From Nitrospira sp. (GTDB lineage Bacteria > Nitrospirota > Nitrospiria > Nitrospirales > Nitrospiraceae), in contig JARFXO010000004.1 of assembly GCA_029194665.1 (NCBI GenBank), positions 186,001-250,000 on the forward strand: 64,000 nucleotides of DNA, written 5' to 3'. Positions 19,275 to 37,219 of this stretch are shown here, piece by piece. Numbering within the stretch: the stretch's first letter is position 1; every line of letters starts with the position of its first letter. A program made the translations under genes and the position numbers. Under the pieces are notes generated by a model. The model had not been told where the DNA came from and searched no databases. It worked only from the letters and a program-made list of their open reading frames with translations.

Positions 19275-19417
19275 TGTCAGCGGTCATGCAATAATCCCCA
19301 GATGTGGTCAATGAATTCTCCCCACCCTCTCACCGAAGGAGGGATGTGATGGAACTTGACGATAGCAAGGAGACAACGATCATACCGTCCCAGGTAGACC
19401 ACACTCGGGAGGTATGT

Positions 19418-20686
19418 ATGGTGGATCAAGAGCGGTGGGCGGAGATTCGACGGTTGCGTCATGAAGAGCGGGGATCCATTTCAGGGATTGCGCGGCGGTT
19501 GGACCTGGATCGGAAGACCGTGCGGCGCAGTCTGCAGCAGACGACGTGGCAACCCTATCGCCGAGCGGCGATGACGGAGACGCTGCTGACCGCCCATGCC
19601 GACTTTGTGCGGACCCGTGCGTCGCAGGTTAATTATTCGGCGCGGATTCTCTATCAGGAACTGCGAGCGAGCCACGAGTACATCGGCAGTTATGAGACGG
19701 TGAAGCGAGGGGTGGCGCCGCTGCGTGAGGGTCAGCTGCAGGCGGAGCGGGCCCTCCTCCGCTTTGAGACACCGCCGGGCCAGCAGAGTCAGATTGATTG
19801 GGGCCAAGCCACCGTGCCCTTCCGCGCCGGCCCGACGGTGGTGCACGTGTTCGTGTTGACGTTGGGGTTCAGCCGACGTGGGTTCTATTACGCCTGTGCC
19901 GATGAGCGGCTGGCGCAGTTTCTCGAGGCCCATGAACGGGCTTTTGCGCATTTCGGTGGCCACACGCGAGAGCATCTGTATGACCGACCGCGAACCGTCT
20001 GTTATGCGGATGAGACGGGGCGGCGGCTCTGGAATCCCACCTTCAAAGCCTTCGCCGACTATTGGGGCTTTGAGCCGCGCGTGTGTCGGCCCTATCGGGC
20101 CCAGACCAAGGGTAAGGTCGAATCCGGCGTGAAATATCTGAAACGGAACTTTCTGCCGGGACGAACGTTTGTCGATCTGGTGGACTTTCAAACCCAACTT
20201 GACGAATGGACCGCGACAATTGCCGACCGCCGCATCCATGGCACGACGCATGAGGAGCCACTCGTCCGGTTTGCGCGAGAACGCAACCACCTGGTCCCGC
20301 TGGCGGACCAGCGCGCCTTCCAGCAGGAGGCGCGCGTCTCACGGATCGTGGCCGAGGACTATTTGGTCAGCCTGGCGACGAACCGCTACTCCGTGCCCTT
20401 CCGGCTCATTGGTCAGCGGGTTGAAGTGCAACGACGGGGGGACACGGTCCACATCTTTCACCGTGACCAAGAGATCGCGACGCACCCGGTGCTCCCGGGC
20501 CAGCACCAATTCCGAATCCAGCCCGAGCACGGCCCTGGAGCCAGTGCGCGTCTCGCCCGCCACCGTCGGTCCACGGTGAGCGATCGGTCCCCTCGCCCCG
20601 ATGCCTTGCCGGAGGTCGAAGTGCGGGATCTGGCCTGGTACGAGGCGGTGTGTGAGCGCACGGCGTCGCAGGAGGGGCGGCCATGA
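19418..20686 (+). CDS. istA: IS21-family transposase IstA
   Basis: About 422 residues from the ATG at 19418, with GGGAGG five bases upstream. The N-terminal helix-turn-helix is GSISGIARRLDLDRKTVRRSL. The DDE core follows with QSQIDWGQATVPF (first Asp), HVFVLTLGFSRRGFYYACADE and PYRAQTKGKVESGVKYLKRNFLPG (Glu). The C-terminal VSLATNRYSVPFRLIGQRVEV is the typical Mu-type C-terminal strand. It overlaps istB by ATGA, as usual for the family. Confidence 0.95.
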   Translation: MVDQERWAEIRRLRHEERGSISGIARRLDLDRKTVRRSLQQTTWQPYRRAAMTETLLTAHADFVRTRASQVNYSARILYQELRASHEYIGSYETVKRGVAPLREGQLQAERALLRFETPPGQQSQIDWGQATVPFRAGPTVVHVFVLTLGFSRRGFYYACADERLAQFLEAHERAFAHFGGHTREHLYDRPRTVCYADETGRRLWNPTFKAFADYWGFEPRVCRPYRAQTKGKVESGVKYLKRNFLPGRTFVDLVDFQTQLDEWTATIADRRIHGTTHEEPLVRFARERNHLVPLADQRAFQQEARVSRIVAEDYLVSLATNRYSVPFRLIGQRVEVQRRGDTVHIFHRDQEIATHPVLPGQHQFRIQPEHGPGASARLARHRRSTVSDRSPRPDALPEVEVRDLAWYEAVCERTASQEGRP

Positions 20687-24216: not shown

Positions 24217-25173
24217 ATGCACCAACAGACCTTTGCGGAAGTCACCTTCGAGCAGTATCGCAAATCCACCCGCCGCGAGCGGTTCCTCGACGAAATGAAC
24301 CGCGTGGTGCCGTGGGGGGAACTGATGGCTGTGATCGAGCCGGTCTACCCCAAGGCCGAAGGCCCCGGACGTCCGCCGGTCGGGATCGAACGCATGCTGC
24401 GTCCCCATTGTTTGCAACAGTGGTTCAACCTGTCGGATCCGGCCGTGGAAGAGGCGCTGTACGACTCGCGCGCCATGCGGCAGTTTGTGGGGATTGATCT
24501 CGGCCGCGAACCCGTGCCCGATGAGACGACGATTTGCAAGTTTCGGCATCTCTTGGAAACCCACCAGTTGGGCCAGCAGCTCTTTGCACGGATCGGGGAG
24601 TATCTGACGAAGCAGGGGCTGCAGGTGAGCCGAGGAACCATCGTGGATGCGACCATCATTAGTGTGCCCAGTTCGACGAAGAATCGGACCAAGGCGCGGG
24701 ATCCCGAGATGCATCAGACCAAGAAGGGCAATCAGTGGTCTGTCGGCATGAAGGCCCATATCGGTGTGGACAGCCAGACGAAACTGATTCATTCGGTCGC
24801 GGCGACCGCCGCCAATGTGCCTGACAGCCAGGTGTTCCCGGAGTGGCTGCATGGCCAGGAGACCCGGGTGTGGAGCGATGCCGCCTATAGCGGGCAACGC
24901 GACGTGATCCGGCAGCATGCGCCCAAGGCCAAGAGTTTCCTGCAGGCGAAAGCGCCTCGCCATCGGCCGCTGAGTGAGGAGGAGCGGGCTCGCAACCGCA
25001 CAAAGTCGAAAGTGCGGGCGAAAGTCGAACATGCGTGCTTGGTGATCAAGCGGATCGTTGGGTGGGCCAAAGTCCGGTACCGGGGGCTAGCGAAGAACAC
25101 CCACTGGCTCCAGATCAGCTGCGGCTTGGCGAATCTGTATGTGGTGCGGCGGCGCCTCCTGGCGAGAGCCTAG
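24217..25173 (+). CDS. IS5-family transposase
   Basis: A 318-residue DDE transposase of the IS5 subgroup. The N-terminal domain contains GRPPVGIERMLRPHCLQQWFNLSDPAVEEALYDS and PDETTICKFRHLLE. Catalytic Asp residues are in GTIVDATIISVPS and VWSDAAYSG, and the Glu region is KVRAKVEHACLVIKRIVGWAKVRYRGLAKN (the Y-x2-R-x3-E-x6-K pattern variant). Full length with no frameshift, so probably active. Confidence 0.95.
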   Translation: MHQQTFAEVTFEQYRKSTRRERFLDEMNRVVPWGELMAVIEPVYPKAEGPGRPPVGIERMLRPHCLQQWFNLSDPAVEEALYDSRAMRQFVGIDLGREPVPDETTICKFRHLLETHQLGQQLFARIGEYLTKQGLQVSRGTIVDATIISVPSSTKNRTKARDPEMHQTKKGNQWSVGMKAHIGVDSQTKLIHSVAATAANVPDSQVFPEWLHGQETRVWSDAAYSGQRDVIRQHAPKAKSFLQAKAPRHRPLSEEERARNRTKSKVRAKVEHACLVIKRIVGWAKVRYRGLAKNTHWLQISCGLANLYVVRRRLLARA

Positions 25174-25312
25174 CGAGGGGGGCGAACGGGGTTACGAGCG
25201 GCCCGACGGCGGGCGACCCCCAAGAAAAGCACTCCCGAACGAGCAGATTCCCACCTGAGTGCTCGTATGCAATCACTCAGAAACAGAGTTCTTCATACAA
25301 ACATGAATTAAT

Positions 25313-26756
25313 CCTGAATCATGCGGGAACAACACCTGAGATTGCCGTCTGGTCCGCGTGCCGACGGGTTTGTCTGGCCGTCTGGTGGTTGCACTGAAGC
25401 CTACTTTTTAAGTAGGGTTCAGTGCGATGGCAAAGGGTCCGCGAAATGTGCAGATTACGTTCGGTTCGCCAACCCTGACGCATTACGGCGGTGTCTATCT
25501 CCTGCACCGCTTCTTCACGCGGATTGGACCGAAACACGCCTTCGCCGAGAAGCTCCGGGTCTGCCATCGCAACACGCGCTACACCGTTGGGGAGATGGTC
25601 TTGGCGGTGTTGTATCCGATGATCCTTGGCCTTGGACGGATCGAGACGACGCAACTCCTCCAACACAATGGTGTCTTCCAATATCTGACCGGCCTGCAGC
25701 GCTATCCCAATCCCACGACCGTGCGGCGCTTCTTGCTGCGGGCGGCACCGACTGCGCTGCCAAGACTGCGCCGGCTGCACGATCGGTTTCTGGCCCTGAT
25801 GACGGGACGGCCACACCAGCCATCGCGGCTGATCTTCGATGTCGACTCGACCGTCCTCGTCCTCTACGGCAAGCAAGAGAAGGCGACGATCGGCTACAAC
25901 CCGATCAAGCGTGGCCGGCCCTCGTATCACCCGTTGCTCTGCTTCGAGGGCCGGAGCAAGGATTTCTGGCACGGCGAATTGCGGCCCGGCGCCACCCACA
26001 CGGCCAGCGGGACGCCCGATCTCCTCGCGGCCTGCTTCGCGAAGATTCCTGCCGGGGTTCGGCTGGTCATCGTCCGCGCGGACAAAGGGTTTTACGACCA
26101 CACCCTGATCGAGTGGCTCGAAGAGCGACGCGCCCGCTTCGTCATCGTCGCTCGCTTGACGACGCCCATCAAACGCAAGCTGGCGCACCTGCGGTATGTA
26201 AGTCCCCGTCAGACCATCGACGTCGCCGAGTTTCGCTATCAGCCCCTCCGGTGGCCTCGGCCCTATCGCTTTGTCGTGGTGCGACGGCCTCAGCCCGACG
26301 AACCGACCGACCAATTGACGCTCTTCAAGCTCGGCCGATATCACTACCAGGTCCTGGTCACAAATCTGCCGTTGCAGCCGCTCAACCTCTGGCGCTTCTA
26401 CAACGACCGCGCCGGAGTCGAATTGTTGATCAAGCAGCTCAAGGGAGATTACGCCCTGGGCAGCATTCCCACCCGCCACTTTCTGGCCAACGAGACCTAC
26501 TTTCATCTATTGCTCTTCGCGTACAACCTCATCAACTGGTTCAAGCGCCTCTGCTTGCCGGCGGAACTACACACAGCCACCTTGCAAACGCTGCGGCAGC
26601 ATATCCTGCTGATGCCGGGGCAACTCTCGCGCACCGACAATCGCCCGCGTCTGATTCTGCCCGCAAGCGGCTCCCGCGAAGCAGCCTGGAAGTATGCCCT
26701 GGATCACATCGAGAACCTCAAGTTGTGAAACCATCACTTTTCACGCCGGATTCAGG
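25313..26756 (+). mobile_element. IS1380-family element inside the IS5 element
   Basis: The ends CCTGAATC (25313-25320) and GATTCAGG (26749-26756) are inverted repeats that extend imperfectly inward. TTAAT flanks both sides (25308-25312 and 26757-26761), a 5-base duplication. Deleting the element rejoins GAATTAATCAGAC, matching the right end of the MITE. It carries one intact transposase and so is the younger insertion. Confidence 0.9.
25427..26728 (+). CDS. IS1380-family transposase
   Basis: A 433-residue DDE transposase. LIFDVDSTVLVLYGKQEKATIGYNPIKRGRPSYHPL carries the first Asp and the family-typical G-Y-N-P-x-K-x-G-R-P-S. VIVRADKGFYDHTLIEWLE carries the second Asp, and FYNDRAGVELLIKQLKGDYALGSIPTRHF the Glu. 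The C-terminus is LLLFAYNLINWFKRLCLP. Full length. It differs from the second IS1380-like transposase at 35.7 kb. Confidence 0.94.
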   Translation: MAKGPRNVQITFGSPTLTHYGGVYLLHRFFTRIGPKHAFAEKLRVCHRNTRYTVGEMVLAVLYPMILGLGRIETTQLLQHNGVFQYLTGLQRYPNPTTVRRFLLRAAPTALPRLRRLHDRFLALMTGRPHQPSRLIFDVDSTVLVLYGKQEKATIGYNPIKRGRPSYHPLLCFEGRSKDFWHGELRPGATHTASGTPDLLAACFAKIPAGVRLVIVRADKGFYDHTLIEWLEERRARFVIVARLTTPIKRKLAHLRYVSPRQTIDVAEFRYQPLRWPRPYRFVVVRRPQPDEPTDQLTLFKLGRYHYQVLVTNLPLQPLNLWRFYNDRAGVELLIKQLKGDYALGSIPTRHFLANETYFHLLLFAYNLINWFKRLCLPAELHTATLQTLRQHILLMPGQLSRTDNRPRLILPASGSREAAWKYALDHIENLKL

Positions 26757-26851
26757 TTAATCAGACGTTCCCTAGCTACAGGTTTGATGGTTGGAAGATG
26801 GACGGGTTTCCTAAGAAGTGGTACTATGTCTTTATCAGGAGGGGGGGCGGT

Positions 26852-27052
26852 GTGAGCAGAGTTGAAGCGATTGAACAGCAGATTAAAACGCTATTGCCCG
26901 ACGACCTTGCCGCGTTTCGCCGGTGGTATGCCACAGTTGATGCTGAGGGCTGGGATCGCCAGTTTGAGGCTGATGTGAAAGCAGGGAAACTCAATGCGTA
27001 CGCTGACAAAGCGCTCCATGCCCATACTACCGATCGGACCAAGACTCTTTGA
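26852..27052 (+). CDS. Antitoxin-like small protein
   Basis: 66 residues from a GTG at 26852 with a strong purine-rich site (AGGAGGGGG) about six bases upstream. The sequence VEAIEQQIKTLLPDDLAAFRRWYATVDAEGWDRQFEADVKAGKLNAYADKAL is the pattern of small antitoxins placed before RelE/ParE-type toxins: a helix, W-D-x-Q-x-E-x-D and a final A-D-x-A-L. It overlaps the following toxin-like frame. Function by resemblance and context. Confidence 0.75.
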   Translation: MSRVEAIEQQIKTLLPDDLAAFRRWYATVDAEGWDRQFEADVKAGKLNAYADKALHAHTTDRTKTL

Positions 27053-27302
27053 TTCACCACGCCTCACCCGACTTTGGACTTGCTACAATGCGCTGCCTCC
27101 TTCAATCCGTGAGCAAGCTGATCGTGCCTACGAACTCCTCAAAGTGAATCTCAAACATCCGTCGTTGCATCTGAGACAAGTGGGCCGGTTCTGGTCTGCG
27201 CGAGTCGGACTCCAATATCGAGCTGTCGGGGTTGACGCAGCAGACGGAATTGTGTGGTTTTGGATTGGAGCCCCTGCTGAGTATGACAAGTTGATGCGGT
27301 AG
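27018..27302 (+). CDS. RelE/ParE-like toxin, start possibly frameshifted
   Basis: The main frame reads CYNALPPSIREQADRAYELLKVNLKHPSLHLRQVGRFWSARVGLQYRAVGVDAADGIVWFWIGAPAEYDKLM, a RelE/ParE-superfamily small toxin. The N-terminus is odd. In another frame, directly after the antitoxin stop, one reads IHHASPDF, which is how relatives begin. Losing one T at about 27075 would separate the two frames. The annotated ATG at 27018 is therefore a compromise. Confidence 0.65.
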   Translation: MPILPIGPRLFDSPRLTRLWTCYNALPPSIREQADRAYELLKVNLKHPSLHLRQVGRFWSARVGLQYRAVGVDAADGIVWFWIGAPAEYDKLMR

Positions 27303-27424: not shown

Positions 27425-29323
27425 GTGAAGATCGAGTATTCTAAGGGCGAACGGGCTTCCAAGGAGCTGATTCTCCTCAATCGCCAACAATTCGAATCCA
27501 CCAGCGGCCGGAAGATGAAGGTGATGCTGATCTTCCCACCGGACTGGTACCCCTCCGAACCCTATTTGAGCCTTCCCTCTCTCACAGCCGTTCTCCGCCA
27601 GGCCGGCCATACGGTCATCCAAAAAGACATCAACTGCGAAATGTGGGACTGGTACTTCAGCGAGGACTTCCTGAGGAAGGTGTTGCGTCGGGTGCCGCAG
27701 CAGTTGGATCGGCTTCGCAAGCTGGCGAGGAAGCGGGACTTGGCCGAGTGGGAGATGGATGTGCAGCTGGCGCTCTGTGATGTCACGCGTCCCCGGATGG
27801 AAAAATTGATTCGGGATGCAGAAGAGGCGAAGGATATCGTCAGAACCGAAAAATTTTATGATATCGATAAATTAGAATGGGCGATTCAAGTCTTTCGCGA
27901 GGTCACCTCGATCATTTCACTGGTCTATGCCCCGGCGCGGATCTGCATGCCGCCGATGGAAACGAATCTGTCGTACAAGCCGTATGTCTCGGCCGAAGTG
28001 ATGGATGCCGTAGAGAATGAACAGGTCAACGTATACCGGGATGTGTTCGACCATCTGGTCAGGCCAGTGATCCAAGCTGAGCAGCCGGACGTGGTTGGGA
28101 TCTCGATTGTCTTACAGCAGCAGATGTTCTCGACGATGACCTTTTGTGCCCTCATCAAGCGGCATTTTCCGGACATTCACGTGACGATCGGCGGCAATAC
28201 GGTGACTCGCCTGCGTGACGTGCTGCCCGAATCGCCGCTCTTTCAGTATTTTGACAGTGCCGTAGTCTATGAAGGAGAGACGGCCTTCGTGCAACTGGTC
28301 GAGGTGATCGGCGCCAAGCAGAGTTTGGCCGGCGTGCCGAATACGATCTATAAGGACGAGACGGGAATTCATGTTTCTCCACTGAGTTATGCGGAGGATA
28401 TGGCTTCGCTGCCGCCACCGGACTTCGACGGCTTGCCGCTCGAGAAGTATTTTGTGCCAACAAGGATTCTCCCCTATCTGGCGACGCGGGGCTGTTACTG
28501 GGGACGCTGCGAGTTCTGTGACCATGGTGAGGGCTATACAGCGGGTTATCGGTCGAAGAAGATCCAGGACATTCTCGCCGACATCACCTATCTGCGCGAC
28601 AAGTATGGCGCCAAACATTTTCACTTTACCGACGAGTCCTATCCACCGGCTTTGTTCCGCAAGCTTTCGCGAGGATTGATTGAAAGTAAGATGGATATCT
28701 TCTGGACGACGCATATGCGGTTCGAGAAGAGTCTGTTGGAAGATGCCGTTTGGCAGGATGCCAAGGGGTCAGGCTGCCGCTATCTCCACTTCGGCTACGA
28801 ATCCGGAGTTGAGCGAGTGCTGCAGCTGATGGATAAGGCAACGACGACTGAAGTGATGACGAGGCACCTCAAGCTCACGGCGGAGGCGGGCATCTGGAAC
28901 CACTGCATGGGCTTCTTTGGTTTTCCCGGTGAGACGAAAGAAGAAGCCTGGCAGTCGGTTCAGTTCCTAGAGCAAAACAAGGATCATGTCCATTCGCTGG
29001 GGTTCGGGACGTTCGACTTAGGCCGACACAATCCGGTGGCCAAACATCCGGAGAAGTGGGGCGTAACGGCGTACAAGAACCCGGAGTGGGATCTCGCGCT
29101 CGATTACTATTACACCGTGAAAAACGGTATGAGCATCGAAGAGGCCGAGCGAGTATTTGAACAGTTCGAACGGAGCCACAATCCCGGCTGGGATCTGAGG
29201 CTGTATATCCGAGAATATATCTTTCTCTATATCTCAAGATTTGGTTTAAGGAAGCTGCAAGATCTTCAGTATCAATCTGTCAAAACCGCCGGAGTGATGC
29301 CGACGTTAGCAGGAAAAATGTAG
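27425..29323 (+). CDS. B12-binding radical SAM protein (first of two paralogs)
   Basis: 632 residues. An N-terminal segment VMLIFPPDWYPSEPYLSLPSLTAVLRQAGHTV starts a cobalamin-binding fold, which resumes after a ~140-residue helical insert with PDVVGISIVLQQQ and VTIGGNTVTRL. No D-x-H-x-x-G motif is visible. The radical SAM core starts YLATRGCYWGRCEFCDHG, where the cluster Cys are spaced C-x4-C-x2-C rather than C-x3-C-x2-C. FTDESYPPALFRK and GFFGFPGETKEEA follow as later core strands. GTG start. Followed 97 bases later by a paralog; substrate unknown. Confidence 0.88.
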   Translation: MKIEYSKGERASKELILLNRQQFESTSGRKMKVMLIFPPDWYPSEPYLSLPSLTAVLRQAGHTVIQKDINCEMWDWYFSEDFLRKVLRRVPQQLDRLRKLARKRDLAEWEMDVQLALCDVTRPRMEKLIRDAEEAKDIVRTEKFYDIDKLEWAIQVFREVTSIISLVYAPARICMPPMETNLSYKPYVSAEVMDAVENEQVNVYRDVFDHLVRPVIQAEQPDVVGISIVLQQQMFSTMTFCALIKRHFPDIHVTIGGNTVTRLRDVLPESPLFQYFDSAVVYEGETAFVQLVEVIGAKQSLAGVPNTIYKDETGIHVSPLSYAEDMASLPPPDFDGLPLEKYFVPTRILPYLATRGCYWGRCEFCDHGEGYTAGYRSKKIQDILADITYLRDKYGAKHFHFTDESYPPALFRKLSRGLIESKMDIFWTTHMRFEKSLLEDAVWQDAKGSGCRYLHFGYESGVERVLQLMDKATTTEVMTRHLKLTAEAGIWNHCMGFFGFPGETKEEAWQSVQFLEQNKDHVHSLGFGTFDLGRHNPVAKHPEKWGVTAYKNPEWDLALDYYYTVKNGMSIEEAERVFEQFERSHNPGWDLRLYIREYIFLYISRFGLRKLQDLQYQSVKTAGVMPTLAGKM

Positions 29324-29420
29324 GGGACTGGCTCCGGCCTCGCCGGTGCCTGTCCCATTTCTTAAGGCTCGGACGGGAATAGTTGCCAATCGGAAGGGCG
29401 ACAATCCCCAAGCAGGGACG

Positions 29421-31373
29421 ATGAGCGCAAGTGGCTTGGTGCAAATAGATGGGCTTACGCCGATCAAGCGGGAAGATCGGAAGCAGTCGAAAGTCACGCT
29501 CATCTTTCCGCCTGAGTGGGTGCCGACAGCGCCGTACCTAGCATTACCCTCACTCACAGCCGTCTTGCGAGAGGCGGGCCATAGGGTCATCCAGCGCGAT
29601 ATCAACATCGGCATGTGGGATCACTTCTTCAGTCTCGAATTTCTGATCTGGGTGAAGGGTCGGCTGGCGATGCAGCTCAAGGCCTTGCACGAGAAGGAAA
29701 AAGCAGGGTTTCTCACGGAACGGGATGTGGACCAAATGGCCGTCGTGGAGCAGGCCGATGCCGTCGATGTGTTCAATCTGGCGGATCGGGCTGAAGAGGC
29801 TAAACTGATCGTGCGTGGCGAACGTTTCTATGAGGCTGAGACGCTGGAGGGGGCGCTCAATACTTTCCGTGAGACGATGTTCTATATCTCTGCCGCCTAC
29901 TATCCCGCCTCACTCGTCTTTTATCCGATGGAGAGCAATTTGGGCTATCGTCCGGGAGTCTCGAAAGAAGTATTTGCCTGTTTAGAAGATGAGCAAGTGA
30001 ACGTCTATCGGGATCTCTGTAATCAGTTGGTTATGCCGGACATGGCGAGAGAGCAGCCGGATGTCGTCGGGATTTCCATCGGGACGCAGATGCAGCTATT
30101 GGCAGGCCTGACTTTCGCGAAGATGATCAAGGAGGCGTTTCCAAAAATCCATGTAGTGGTGGGCGGGAACGTCATCACACGGCTTCAAGAAGACCTCATC
30201 AATCATGAGAGGTTTTTTGCAGAAGTGTTTGATTCAGCGATCCTCTATGAAGGGGAACATGCCTTGCTGTGGCTCATCGAAGCGTTGAATGAGCACCGGC
30301 CGCTTGCCTCTATTCCCAACCTCATGTATCGCGATGAGTCAGGTCTCCATCGGAATTCTGAAGTGTATACCGAGAAGACCAATGAGCTACCCTTGCCGGA
30401 CTTTGAGGGCATGCCGCTGGATCGCTACTTCGTTCCGGAACTGATCATTCCCTACTTGGCGACGCGCGGCTGCTATTGGGGGCGCTGCACGTTTTGCGAC
30501 CATGGTCAGGGCTACTTCGATCAGTACCGAGGGATGGCGGCTCAGCGGGTGGTTGAGCAGATCAAGGCTCTACGGGATAAGTACCAGTGCCGGCACTTTC
30601 TCTTCTCCGATGAATCCTATCCACCGGCGCTCTTCAAGAAGGTTTCGCAGCTGCTGGTGGACCAAGAGGTGAAGATCAAGTGGACGACGCTCATTCGATT
30701 TGAAGAGACTCTGCAAGATCAAGCCATCTGGAATCTCGCGGCTGAGGCCGGCTGTTGCACGCTCTATTATGGGATGGAATCGGCGAACGAGCGGGTCTTG
30801 AATCTTATGGACAAGCATGCTCGGAAAGACGTCATTGAACGCAATCTCCAAATGGCGGCGAAGGCGGGGATTTGGAACCACGTGATGGCCTTTTATGGCT
30901 TTCCCGGCGAGACGTTTGAGGAGGCCATGGAAACTCGTCAGTTTGTCCTCGATCATCAGCCGGTGATTCATTCCCTCGAACTGTTCTACTTCGTGGCGTA
31001 CCGCCACACCCCAATGGTGCGGCATCCGGAAAAATTCGGCATCACGATCCATAAGCAGGAGGAGTACGATCTGCCGTTGGACTATTACTACACCTTGAAC
31101 GACCCGAAGACACTGGCTTGTCTCGACGCAATGCAGCTCTGCGAGGAATTCTATAAGAACGATTTTCATCCCTGGGCCGTGCGGGTCAACTCTCGCGAAC
31201 ATGTCTTTCTCTATATCTCGAAGTTTGGGACGAACCGGTTACCCCAAATTTATGCTCAGCAGACGCAGCCGGTGGGGTCACCAGACGGAGTGTCAGGCTT
31301 GATTACCTGGCCGGTTGTACATTCGCAAGGCGACGAAGGAATGTCACGTGTCACCAGTCACGACACCGGCTGA
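29421..31373 (+). CDS. B12-binding radical SAM protein (second paralog)
   Basis: About 650 residues, with the same architecture as its upstream neighbour. VTLIFPPEWVPTAPYLALPSLTAVLREAGHRV opens the B12-type domain; a helical insert follows, then PDVVGISIGTQMQ, VVVGGNVITRL and the cluster site YLATRGCYWGRCTFCDHGQGY (C-x4-C-x2-C). Next come FSDESYPPALFKK and AFYGFPGETFEEA. The ATG at 29421 gives an N-terminus similar in length to the first paralog; a GTG at 29346 is possible. Likely arose by tandem duplication. Confidence 0.87.
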   Translation: MSASGLVQIDGLTPIKREDRKQSKVTLIFPPEWVPTAPYLALPSLTAVLREAGHRVIQRDINIGMWDHFFSLEFLIWVKGRLAMQLKALHEKEKAGFLTERDVDQMAVVEQADAVDVFNLADRAEEAKLIVRGERFYEAETLEGALNTFRETMFYISAAYYPASLVFYPMESNLGYRPGVSKEVFACLEDEQVNVYRDLCNQLVMPDMAREQPDVVGISIGTQMQLLAGLTFAKMIKEAFPKIHVVVGGNVITRLQEDLINHERFFAEVFDSAILYEGEHALLWLIEALNEHRPLASIPNLMYRDESGLHRNSEVYTEKTNELPLPDFEGMPLDRYFVPELIIPYLATRGCYWGRCTFCDHGQGYFDQYRGMAAQRVVEQIKALRDKYQCRHFLFSDESYPPALFKKVSQLLVDQEVKIKWTTLIRFEETLQDQAIWNLAAEAGCCTLYYGMESANERVLNLMDKHARKDVIERNLQMAAKAGIWNHVMAFYGFPGETFEEAMETRQFVLDHQPVIHSLELFYFVAYRHTPMVRHPEKFGITIHKQEEYDLPLDYYYTLNDPKTLACLDAMQLCEEFYKNDFHPWAVRVNSREHVFLYISKFGTNRLPQIYAQQTQPVGSPDGVSGLITWPVVHSQGDEGMSRVTSHDTG

Positions 31374-31421: not shown

Positions 31422-31679
31422 TTATCGTTCGGCTTCGTCGGGAATAAACACGGCAGAGATCAATGCATAGGCGGCTTCGATCGTGCGAGTCATGTCCTCA
31501 GCTTTTTGAAACTGTTGCATGTATTGCTTCGGATTGTTGGTGAGACCGGCATAGCGCGTAGGATTCCAGTTGTAGAGCTGGACGCGCTTCGCCCGTTCCA
31601 GGTCTTCGGTGGTGATGGGCAGCGTGAGGTTAAGAATGTCCAACGCATGGGCGACATCCTGCTCGGTGATGTGGTCCAT
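31422..31679 (-). CDS. Small J-domain-like helical protein
   Basis: About 85 residues from the ATG at 31679 (a longer frame reaches 31742). ALDILNLTLPITTEDLERAKRVQLYNWNPTRYAGLTNNPKQYMQQFQKAEDMTRTIEAAYALI has the helix-helix-helix layout of a DnaJ-type domain, with an N-P-x-R-Y in place of the usual HPD. The missing HPD means it should not stimulate DnaK. It converges on the radical SAM genes. Function unknown. Confidence 0.55.
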   Translation of the reverse strand: MDHITEQDVAHALDILNLTLPITTEDLERAKRVQLYNWNPTRYAGLTNNPKQYMQQFQKAEDMTRTIEAAYALISAVFIPDEAER

Positions 31680-31784
31680 GGGCGGAGTCTGCCAAATATA
31701 ACGAGGCCTGTCAAATGTCGGGCGGTTGTTTTCTGACGGCACGGATTCTCAGGTGGTGTGGTCCAGACGAGTTCGGGAGTGACC

Positions 31785-35582: not shown

Positions 35583-37219
35583 CCTATAAACGGCAGTTGA
35601 AGCAGTGGCCTACTCCGGTATAGCTTTGCTGGAAGCGGAGTAGCGGCACATTTCTTCATACGAAGGGAGTCACCCAATGGGTGAGGCACCACGCAAGGGG
35701 GTGGCAGGACAGAAGGGGGCGATTGCGCTCGATACGTTTGGAGGGCGCATCCATGTCGAGTGGGATCCAGCTGCAGCCGTGACCCCACTGGGCCAGTTGC
35801 CGTTCTTCATCGAGTTTCTCAAGGTCAGTGGCCTGTTCGAGGCGTGGGTAGCGGACTGCCCGCTCACCTACCACAGCAACCACGCGTCGAATAAACGCGC
35901 GGTGCTGGCCACCTTGCTGTTGTCGATCCTGGCCGGCCACCACCGCTACGCGCATATTACGGCGATTCGCCATGACGGGATTCACCCTGAGCTTCTGGGC
36001 GTCACGCAGCTCGTGTCGGAGGATGCCGCACGGCGGGGGCTCGCCCGGATCGACGAGTCATCGGGCGTGGCCTGGCTCGATCGGCAGCTGGCGAAGACGA
36101 CACACCCGTTACTGACGACGCTGTGGATTCTGGATCTGGATACCACGGTGAAGTGCCTGTACGGCAAGCAGGAAGGGGCGGTGGTGGGCTACAACCCGAA
36201 GAAACCGGGGCGACCGTCGCACAGCGATCACAGCGCGGTGATGGCCAACACCCGGCTGGCCCTGGCAGTGGACGTGCTGCCGGGCAATGAGACGGCCCCG
36301 CTGCATAGCATGCCGGGGATCTGGGCCTGGCTGGATGCCTTGCCGAAGGAGGCGCGCCCCGCTGTGCTCCGAGGGGACGTGGCCTTTGGCAACGAATCGG
36401 TGCTCCGCGAGGCCGAGGCTCGCGACCAGCCCTATCTCACCAAGCTGCGATTGACGAAGAACGTGAAGGCCCTCATCAAGACGTGGTTCCGCTCCACCGC
36501 ATGGGAAGAGGCGGGACAGGGTTGGGAAGGGGTCGAGGACAGGCTGAGGCTGTCAGGCTGGAGCCGTGCACGACGCGTGGTGGTGTTGCGCCGGGCACTC
36601 ACCGGCGAGATGCTGATGACTGGAACGGACGACGATCAGGAGTGGTTCGACTTCATAGAGAGCGAGGGGCCGACCAAGCGGTACGAGTACGCCGTGCTGG
36701 TCACCTCAACCCCGTACGAGATCATTGCCCTCGCCCAGCTCTATCGCGATCGGGCCGATGCCGAACACACCTTCGACGAGCTGAAGAATCAGTGGGGCTG
36801 GGGCGGCTTCACCACGCAGGATCTGGCGCGCTGCCGGCTCATGGCACGGATGGTGGCGTTGATCTACAACTGGTGGACGTTGTTCGTGCGGCTCGCCCAG
36901 CCACACAAGCACTTCGAGGCGATCTCCAGCCGGCCGCTGTTGCTGCATGGCGTCGCCACGCAAACTCACCACGCTGGACACACGCGCCTGACCATCACCA
37001 GCCTGCACGCGAAGCGCTCGGCCATCCAAGCTGTGCTGTCGAACTTGGCGGGCTTTCTGCGGACCCTCAAAGCGACTGCGGAGCAGTGGACCGATGCCGA
37101 CCGCCTGCGTGCGATGCTCACCCGTGCATTCGCCACATTCATGCGCACGACAGCGGGTCCTCCGACCCTGTTGATCTCAAAAACTGCCCCGACATGACAC
37201 GTTGACTGCCGTTTTTAGG
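35583..37219 (+). mobile_element. Complete IS1380-type element with 5-bp target duplication
   Basis: The ends CCTATAAACGGCAGT (35583-35597) and ACTGCCGTTTTTAGG (37205-37219) are inverted repeats with one mismatch. TTCAT is duplicated exactly at 35578-35582 and 37220-37224. The element is 1637 bp and holds one intact transposase. It sits in the convergent spacer between the hypothetical membrane protein and the Rieske gene and breaks no gene. Confidence 0.92.
35677..37197 (+). CDS. IS1380-family transposase
   Basis: 506 residues, full length. LWILDLDTTVKCLYGKQEGAVVGYNPKKPGRPSHSDHS contains the first catalytic Asp and the family G-Y-N-P-K-K-x-G-R-P-S. AVLRGDVAFGNESVLREAE holds the second Asp, and YRDRADAEHTFDELKNQWGWGGFTTQD the Glu. 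It is distant from the other IS1380 transposase in the window, so these are two different element types rather than copies. Confidence 0.93.
   Translation: MGEAPRKGVAGQKGAIALDTFGGRIHVEWDPAAAVTPLGQLPFFIEFLKVSGLFEAWVADCPLTYHSNHASNKRAVLATLLLSILAGHHRYAHITAIRHDGIHPELLGVTQLVSEDAARRGLARIDESSGVAWLDRQLAKTTHPLLTTLWILDLDTTVKCLYGKQEGAVVGYNPKKPGRPSHSDHSAVMANTRLALAVDVLPGNETAPLHSMPGIWAWLDALPKEARPAVLRGDVAFGNESVLREAEARDQPYLTKLRLTKNVKALIKTWFRSTAWEEAGQGWEGVEDRLRLSGWSRARRVVVLRRALTGEMLMTGTDDDQEWFDFIESEGPTKRYEYAVLVTSTPYEIIALAQLYRDRADAEHTFDELKNQWGWGGFTTQDLARCRLMARMVALIYNWWTLFVRLAQPHKHFEAISSRPLLLHGVATQTHHAGHTRLTITSLHAKRSAIQAVLSNLAGFLRTLKATAEQWTDADRLRAMLTRAFATFMRTTAGPPTLLISKTAPT

Follow-up and report, generated by a model that had tools for sequence, protein, structure and literature searches.

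Results

Two tandem cobalamin-binding radical SAM genes

The window, i.e., the whole stretch of 64,000 nucleotides of Nitrospira sp. DNA that was analysed, carries two neighboring genes, here called A and B, with the following features.

27425..29323, + strand: gene A, encoding a 632-aa cobalamin-binding radical SAM protein (ORF, Pfam, AF2)
27629..28030, + strand: helical insert of A, residues 69-202 (AF2 of the whole protein and of the insert alone)
28109..28111, + strand: Val229 of A, the residue expected under cobalt (alignment with OxsB and PMC13331322), fixed in A
28493..28519, + strand: C-x4-C-x2-C motif of A (C357, C362, C365), invariant in the alignment
29346..31373, + strand: gene B, a 675-aa ORF encoding a cobalamin-binding radical SAM paralog of A
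29601..30002, + strand: helical insert of B, ORF residues 86-219 (alignment to the A insert)
30081..30083, + strand: Gly246 of B, the residue expected under cobalt (aligned directly to OxsB Asn186), fixed in B
30471..30497, + strand: C-x4-C-x2-C motif of B (C376, C381, C384), invariant in the alignment
31422..31742, - strand: convergent small gene outside the A-B unit, at its 3′ boundary, conserved in 50 loci

In A as well as in B, the B12-binding domain (PF02310) and the radical SAM domain (PF04055) score above the Pfam gathering cut-off. Both proteins have the class B radical SAM architecture of an N-terminal B12-binding Rossmann domain and a radical SAM domain, as judged by Pfam and by the AF2 fold of A (mean pLDDT 77.5, pTM 0.82). 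A first interpretation of the locus from the letters alone (the sequence-only reading) had described two full-length, diverged tandem paralogs, and this was borne out, with unchanged coordinates and 48% identity between A and B in a protein alignment. The start of A is common to nearly all A orthologs. B orthologs align from about residue 26 of the window's B ORF, and B therefore probably starts at the ATG at 29421, which would give a protein of about 650 aa and a spacing of 97 nt between the two genes. A scan for promoters and terminators returned sites no more frequently than in shuffles.

Cluster motif and the residue expected under cobalt

Both proteins read TRGCYWGRC-x-F-C, and the three cysteines are invariant in the 32 A/B proteins that were aligned, such that the earlier assignment of C-x4-C-x2-C (from TRGCYWGRC-x-x-C) stands. 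The idea that this spacing is unusual had to be abandoned, because it has been published for GenK, GenD1 and Sis14 (PMC4340712) and is also present in our alignment in OxsB, whose structure is solved and which reads RGCDYSRCTFC. A novel cluster motif is thus ruled out by these enzymes, as well as by a paralog C in the same genome and by other relatives; in the relatives found, the distance between the first and the second cysteine is 3, 4 or 7 residues.

The motif D-x-H-x-x-G was looked for and found in none of the 32 aligned A/B proteins, as had been claimed. The lack of a lower histidine ligand is not an oddity, however, but usual for the structural class, since the solved enzymes of the OxsB/TsrM/TokK class bind base-off cobalamin without it (PMC13331322). 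In these enzymes, the loop after strand 3 places Asn186 (OxsB, via a water), Arg69 (TsrM) or Trp76 (TokK) under the cobalt (PMC13331322). The Val of A and the Gly of B expected at this place are unlike every solved precedent. A glutamate that aligns with Glu363 of OxsB is invariant in both paralogs; given that the cluster motif is invariant as well, neither A nor B looks like a dead partner.

The helical insert

The sequence-only reading had also noted a helical insert of about 140 residues after the first strand of the B12-type fold. The insert is real and all-helical, with about 134 residues and a pLDDT of about 90 over most of its length in the AF2 model of A, but its position is a different one. 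Strands beta-1 (residues 32-37) and beta-2 (63-68) precede helices that extend from residue 69 to about 167, followed by a low-confidence stretch before beta-3 (223-227). The insert therefore lies between strands 2 and 3, and one beta-alpha-beta unit of the Rossmann fold precedes it.

The inserts of A and B are 42% identical without large gaps. By this comparison, the insert measures 128-133 residues in A, B and C. In most of the other close relatives, which come from other Nitrospirota, Rhizobium, Aureibacter and Vitreoscilla, it has 118-161 residues; a member of rSAM_ocin_1 (69) and some further proteins fall in the range of 69-85, and three more distantly related B12 radical SAM proteins of the source genome have almost no insert. 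These inserts of 118-161 residues, found in relatives from other Nitrospirota, Alpha- and Betaproteobacteria and Bacteroidota and thus also in other phyla, rule out that the insert is unique to the A/B pair. Neither C-x4-C nor the insert distinguishes A/B; judging from the relatives compared, motif and long insert tend to co-occur in a broad, largely uncharacterised set. A Foldseek search with the A insert alone gave no match at E <=0.001, which says nothing on novelty.

Genomic neighbourhood

A and B form a two-gene unit without a conserved partner gene, and no conserved neighbour reveals the product, in agreement with the sequence-only reading. The genes upstream of A vary between loci. The small gene at 31422-31742 has no Pfam or PHROG match, though by eye its product resembles a J-domain in which HPD is replaced (WNPTR), and a PhzF gene starts divergently from it. 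An overlapping, toxin-antitoxin-like pair of small genes lies upstream of A in the window (26798-27302, + strand) and recurs in only a few loci. DDE transposases flank the region (24217-26728 and 35677-37197), and an integrase-core/Mu-type transposase is located at 19304-20686. An anti-phage system was considered and rejected, since PADLOC gave only a weak hit to the model of a candidate system.

A conserved small ORF that might encode a precursor was found neither in the 800 nt upstream nor in the 700 nt downstream of the pair, nor in the A-B gap (up to 172 nt), and the source genome (G000) has no NHLP or Nif11 leader (TIGR03793, TIGR03798) at E 0.01; most other A/B-bearing genomes also lack these leader families. 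A RiPP precursor beside A/B was rejected on these grounds.

In many other Nitrospirales, A-B is followed by a gene for a 412-aa protein, c9 (L120, 11756-12994), which is highly conserved (84% mean column identity) and carries CPVKCEFC (CX3CX2C) as well as a weak, sub-cut-off match to DUF512. This domain is known to bind cobalamin in radical SAM enzymes (PMC11659888), and c9 may therefore be a third cobalamin enzyme. It has no match among PDB sequences and is absent from the source genome. A second family of 412 aa, c22 (L121, 1745-2983), has no Pfam match and lies beside A-B in family f2 and in a small number of other cases, but is unlinked elsewhere. Neither c9 nor c22 qualifies as an obligate partner, since both occur unlinked (c9 in family f2), and c9 is found in one genome (G026) even without A/B.

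Conservation and divergence of the pair

Relatives of A and B are found in Nitrospira and other Nitrospirales. B is present in 30 of 39 sampled genomes, all 30 of which also carry A, almost always adjacent; two further genomes (G032, G035) have A without B, which was lost to a contig end. In eight genomes, of which six belong to the genus, one to the family and one to the order, paralog C is present while A and B are both missing; incomplete bins may account for some of these cases. Among the 80 loci fetched, 68 contain both genes and 12 only B, and in several of the latter the contig starts there. In a phylum-wide sample, close matches were confined to families of the Nitrospirales, with weaker relatives elsewhere. 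What is new is this conservation of A/B as a pair across nearly all nitrite-oxidising Nitrospira and Nitrospirales; a literature search for B12-binding radical SAM proteins in Nitrospira found nothing relevant.

The tree resolves A and B as sister clades, each supported at 100/100, which places the duplication before the radiation of the Nitrospirales; these two clades are firm, while the deeper placement of relatives depends on long branches. There are 55 positions, including Val229/Gly246, that are fixed within each paralog yet differ between A and B. Such fixed divergence alongside retained catalytic motifs is, at the level of the alignment, the pattern of two putative working enzymes with different tasks.

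Paralog C and a RiPP-linked relative

Paralog C (L116, 8167-9945, - strand; G000:C6 at about 72-74 kb) is 33% identical to B and has the motif RGCYYKDCAFC. It adjoins genes for a TorD-like chaperone and an EB_dh (NxrC-type) protein, and the locus also holds a second EB_dh protein as well as TatA, TPR, NHL and cytochrome genes; the distant Nitrospirales genomes that were inspected share this gene order. In N. moscoviensis, nxrC_2 lies beside a TorD-like gene (PMC6606698), and cobalamin radical SAM enzyme C may therefore be part of a nitrite oxidoreductase maturation locus.

A more distant member of the Nitrospirota (G162) has three tandem relatives (L172, 593-6129) with C-x4-C-x2-C and inserts of 118-122 residues. 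This triplet precedes an NHLP export system (TIGR03794, TIGR03796 and TIGR03797, all above cut-off), and the same contig encodes two NHLP leader peptides, likewise scoring above cut-off, 10-23 kb beyond it. By analogy, this lends support to C-methylation of a peptide or protein as a lead for A/B. Since the source genome and most A/B genomes have no NHLP or Nif11 leader, the analogy to RiPPs is not directly transferable, and A/B probably have a different substrate, one conserved in the lineage.

Closest families and folds

No NCBIfam model reaches its cut-off with A or B. The curated families that come closest are methyltransferases, namely PhpK (TIGR04479; 117 bits for A and 144.9 for B, cut-off 600) and the RiPP C-methyltransferases of rSAM_ocin_1 (TIGR03975; 121.5 and 116.4 bits, cut-off 281.85). 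BchE (TIGR02026) follows with 58.7 and 85.7 bits (cut-off 481), and TIGR04014 (MCR glutamine methylase) is far below its cut-off with both proteins. A true member of rSAM_ocin_1 (532 bits, Cx7Cx2C) is encoded elsewhere in the source genome (L118, 8169-10142, - strand).

Among solved sequences, a profile search with A/B found OxsB as the closest (E 1.6e-12), followed by MgmA (PDB 9CCB, E 2e-7). By VIA-align, where values within 1 Z were counted as tied, the AF2 model of A matches OxsB (Z 21.8), TsrM (21.8), AprD4 (21.0), CysS (20.4), MgmA (20.0) and TokK (18.4). A common fold does not show a common reaction.

Discussion

From the domains, motifs, co-retention and fixed divergence of A and B, together with the predicted fold, we propose with a probability of roughly 0.5 that the two proteins are Cbl-dependent radical SAM methylases that act on one lineage-conserved substrate. 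They would be class B radical SAM methylases of the structural class of OxsB/TsrM/TokK, each binding base-off cobalamin in the N-terminal Rossmann domain, with C-x4-C-x2-C coordinating a [4Fe-4S] cluster. In this scheme, cob(I)alamin would be methylated by one SAM molecule, and cleavage of another would yield a 5′-deoxyadenosyl radical. This radical would abstract a hydrogen atom from the substrate, at an unactivated carbon or, with lower probability, at phosphorus, and the methyl group would pass from cobalt to the resulting substrate radical. The helical insert may help to hold the substrate, which would be a protein, peptide or metabolite conserved in the lineage rather than a standard RiPP. 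As to the suggestion of the sequence-only reading that the paralogs act on one substrate, their co-retention across the Nitrospirales argues for joint action, and A and B might target separate sites or act one after the other, in the way that PoyB and PoyC split the sites of one peptide (PMC11285071). That GenK and GenD1 are active C-methyltransferases with C-x4-C-x2-C (PMC4340712) is in line with methylation; against it stands that no substrate, partner gene or precursor peptide was found.

OxsB and BchE are examples of class members that do not methylate, and methylating and non-methylating chemistry cannot be told apart by sequence alone. A cyclisation, ring contraction or oxidation by A/B would agree with OxsB being the closest solved sequence, tying for the best fold match and having the same C-x4-C spacing, as well as with the 86 bits of BchE for B. 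We nevertheless find such a reaction doubtful, since the methyltransferase models PhpK and rSAM_ocin_1 outscore BchE, and the lower-face Asn of OxsB is replaced by Val or Gly in A/B. A narrower form of the methylase proposal, in which the pair would serve RiPP or protein maturation by C-methylating residues of a specific Nitrospirales protein in the manner of PoyB/PoyC, MgmA or Mmp10, can be entertained tentatively. It would fit with rSAM_ocin_1 as best or second-best family, with the tandem triplet and leaders near an NHLP exporter in the distant relative, and with paralog C lying among EB_dh and TorD-type genes, but it has to contend with the missing small ORF and leaders and with a conservation across the order that contrasts with the patchy distribution of RiPPs.

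That A/B belong to a multi-enzyme pathway with c9, a PhzF-like isomerase and an alcohol dehydrogenase appears quite unlikely. The order A-B, c9, PhzF, ADH is found in many Nitrospirales, and the cysteine motif and DUF512 match of c9 would agree with a cobalamin-related role; however, the convergent gene separates B from those genes here and in many loci, and c9 is missing from the source genome, can occur apart from A/B and has no match among PDB sequences. Similarly improbable, in our estimate, is an extension of the methylase proposal in which A, B and C form a Nitrospirales enzyme set that C-methylates nitrite oxidoreductase or partner respiratory proteins, which would parallel the action of Mmp10 and MgmA on methyl-coenzyme M reductase.

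The chemistry that we propose for A and B as methylases is of a known kind, and the interest lies in their conservation across the order and in the fixed difference under cobalt. That nearly a whole order of aerobic nitrite oxidisers retains a demanding, oxygen-sensitive pair of B12 enzymes suggests a modification that matters to them, and we found no paper describing such a modification in these bacteria. Furthermore, the Val/Gly difference in co-retained paralogs provides a naturally occurring test case for the influence of the lower face on cobalamin chemistry.

Comparison with known systems

The aminoglycoside C-methyltransferases GenK, GenD1 and Sis14 are Cbl-dependent radical SAM enzymes with the same Cx4Cx2C as A/B (PMC4340712; compared by published motif), but they are single enzymes within antibiotic clusters. 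OxsB (PDB 5UL2-5UL4) is closest to A/B in sequence and fold and likewise has C-x4-C-x2-C and no lower histidine, whereas it has an extra N-terminal domain and Asn186 under the cobalt (PMC13331322). A long insert of the A/B kind is not seen in OxsB, as judged from the sequence alignment alone, and its reaction is a ring contraction rather than a methylation. The PhpK family, the best or second-best curated match, performs P-methylation in phosphonate pathways, and no phosphonate-pathway genes were seen near A/B. MgmA, the glutamine C-methylase of McrA, resembles A/B in fold and sequence and is a protein-modifying methylase, but its substrate is methanogen-specific. PoyB and PoyC are, like A and B, two related B12 radical SAM proteins with an unusual cysteine spacing, and both C-methylate one substrate (PMC11285071); together with rSAM_ocin_1, they differ from A/B by Cx7Cx2C and by a shorter insert, as in the rSAM_ocin_1 member with 69 residues.
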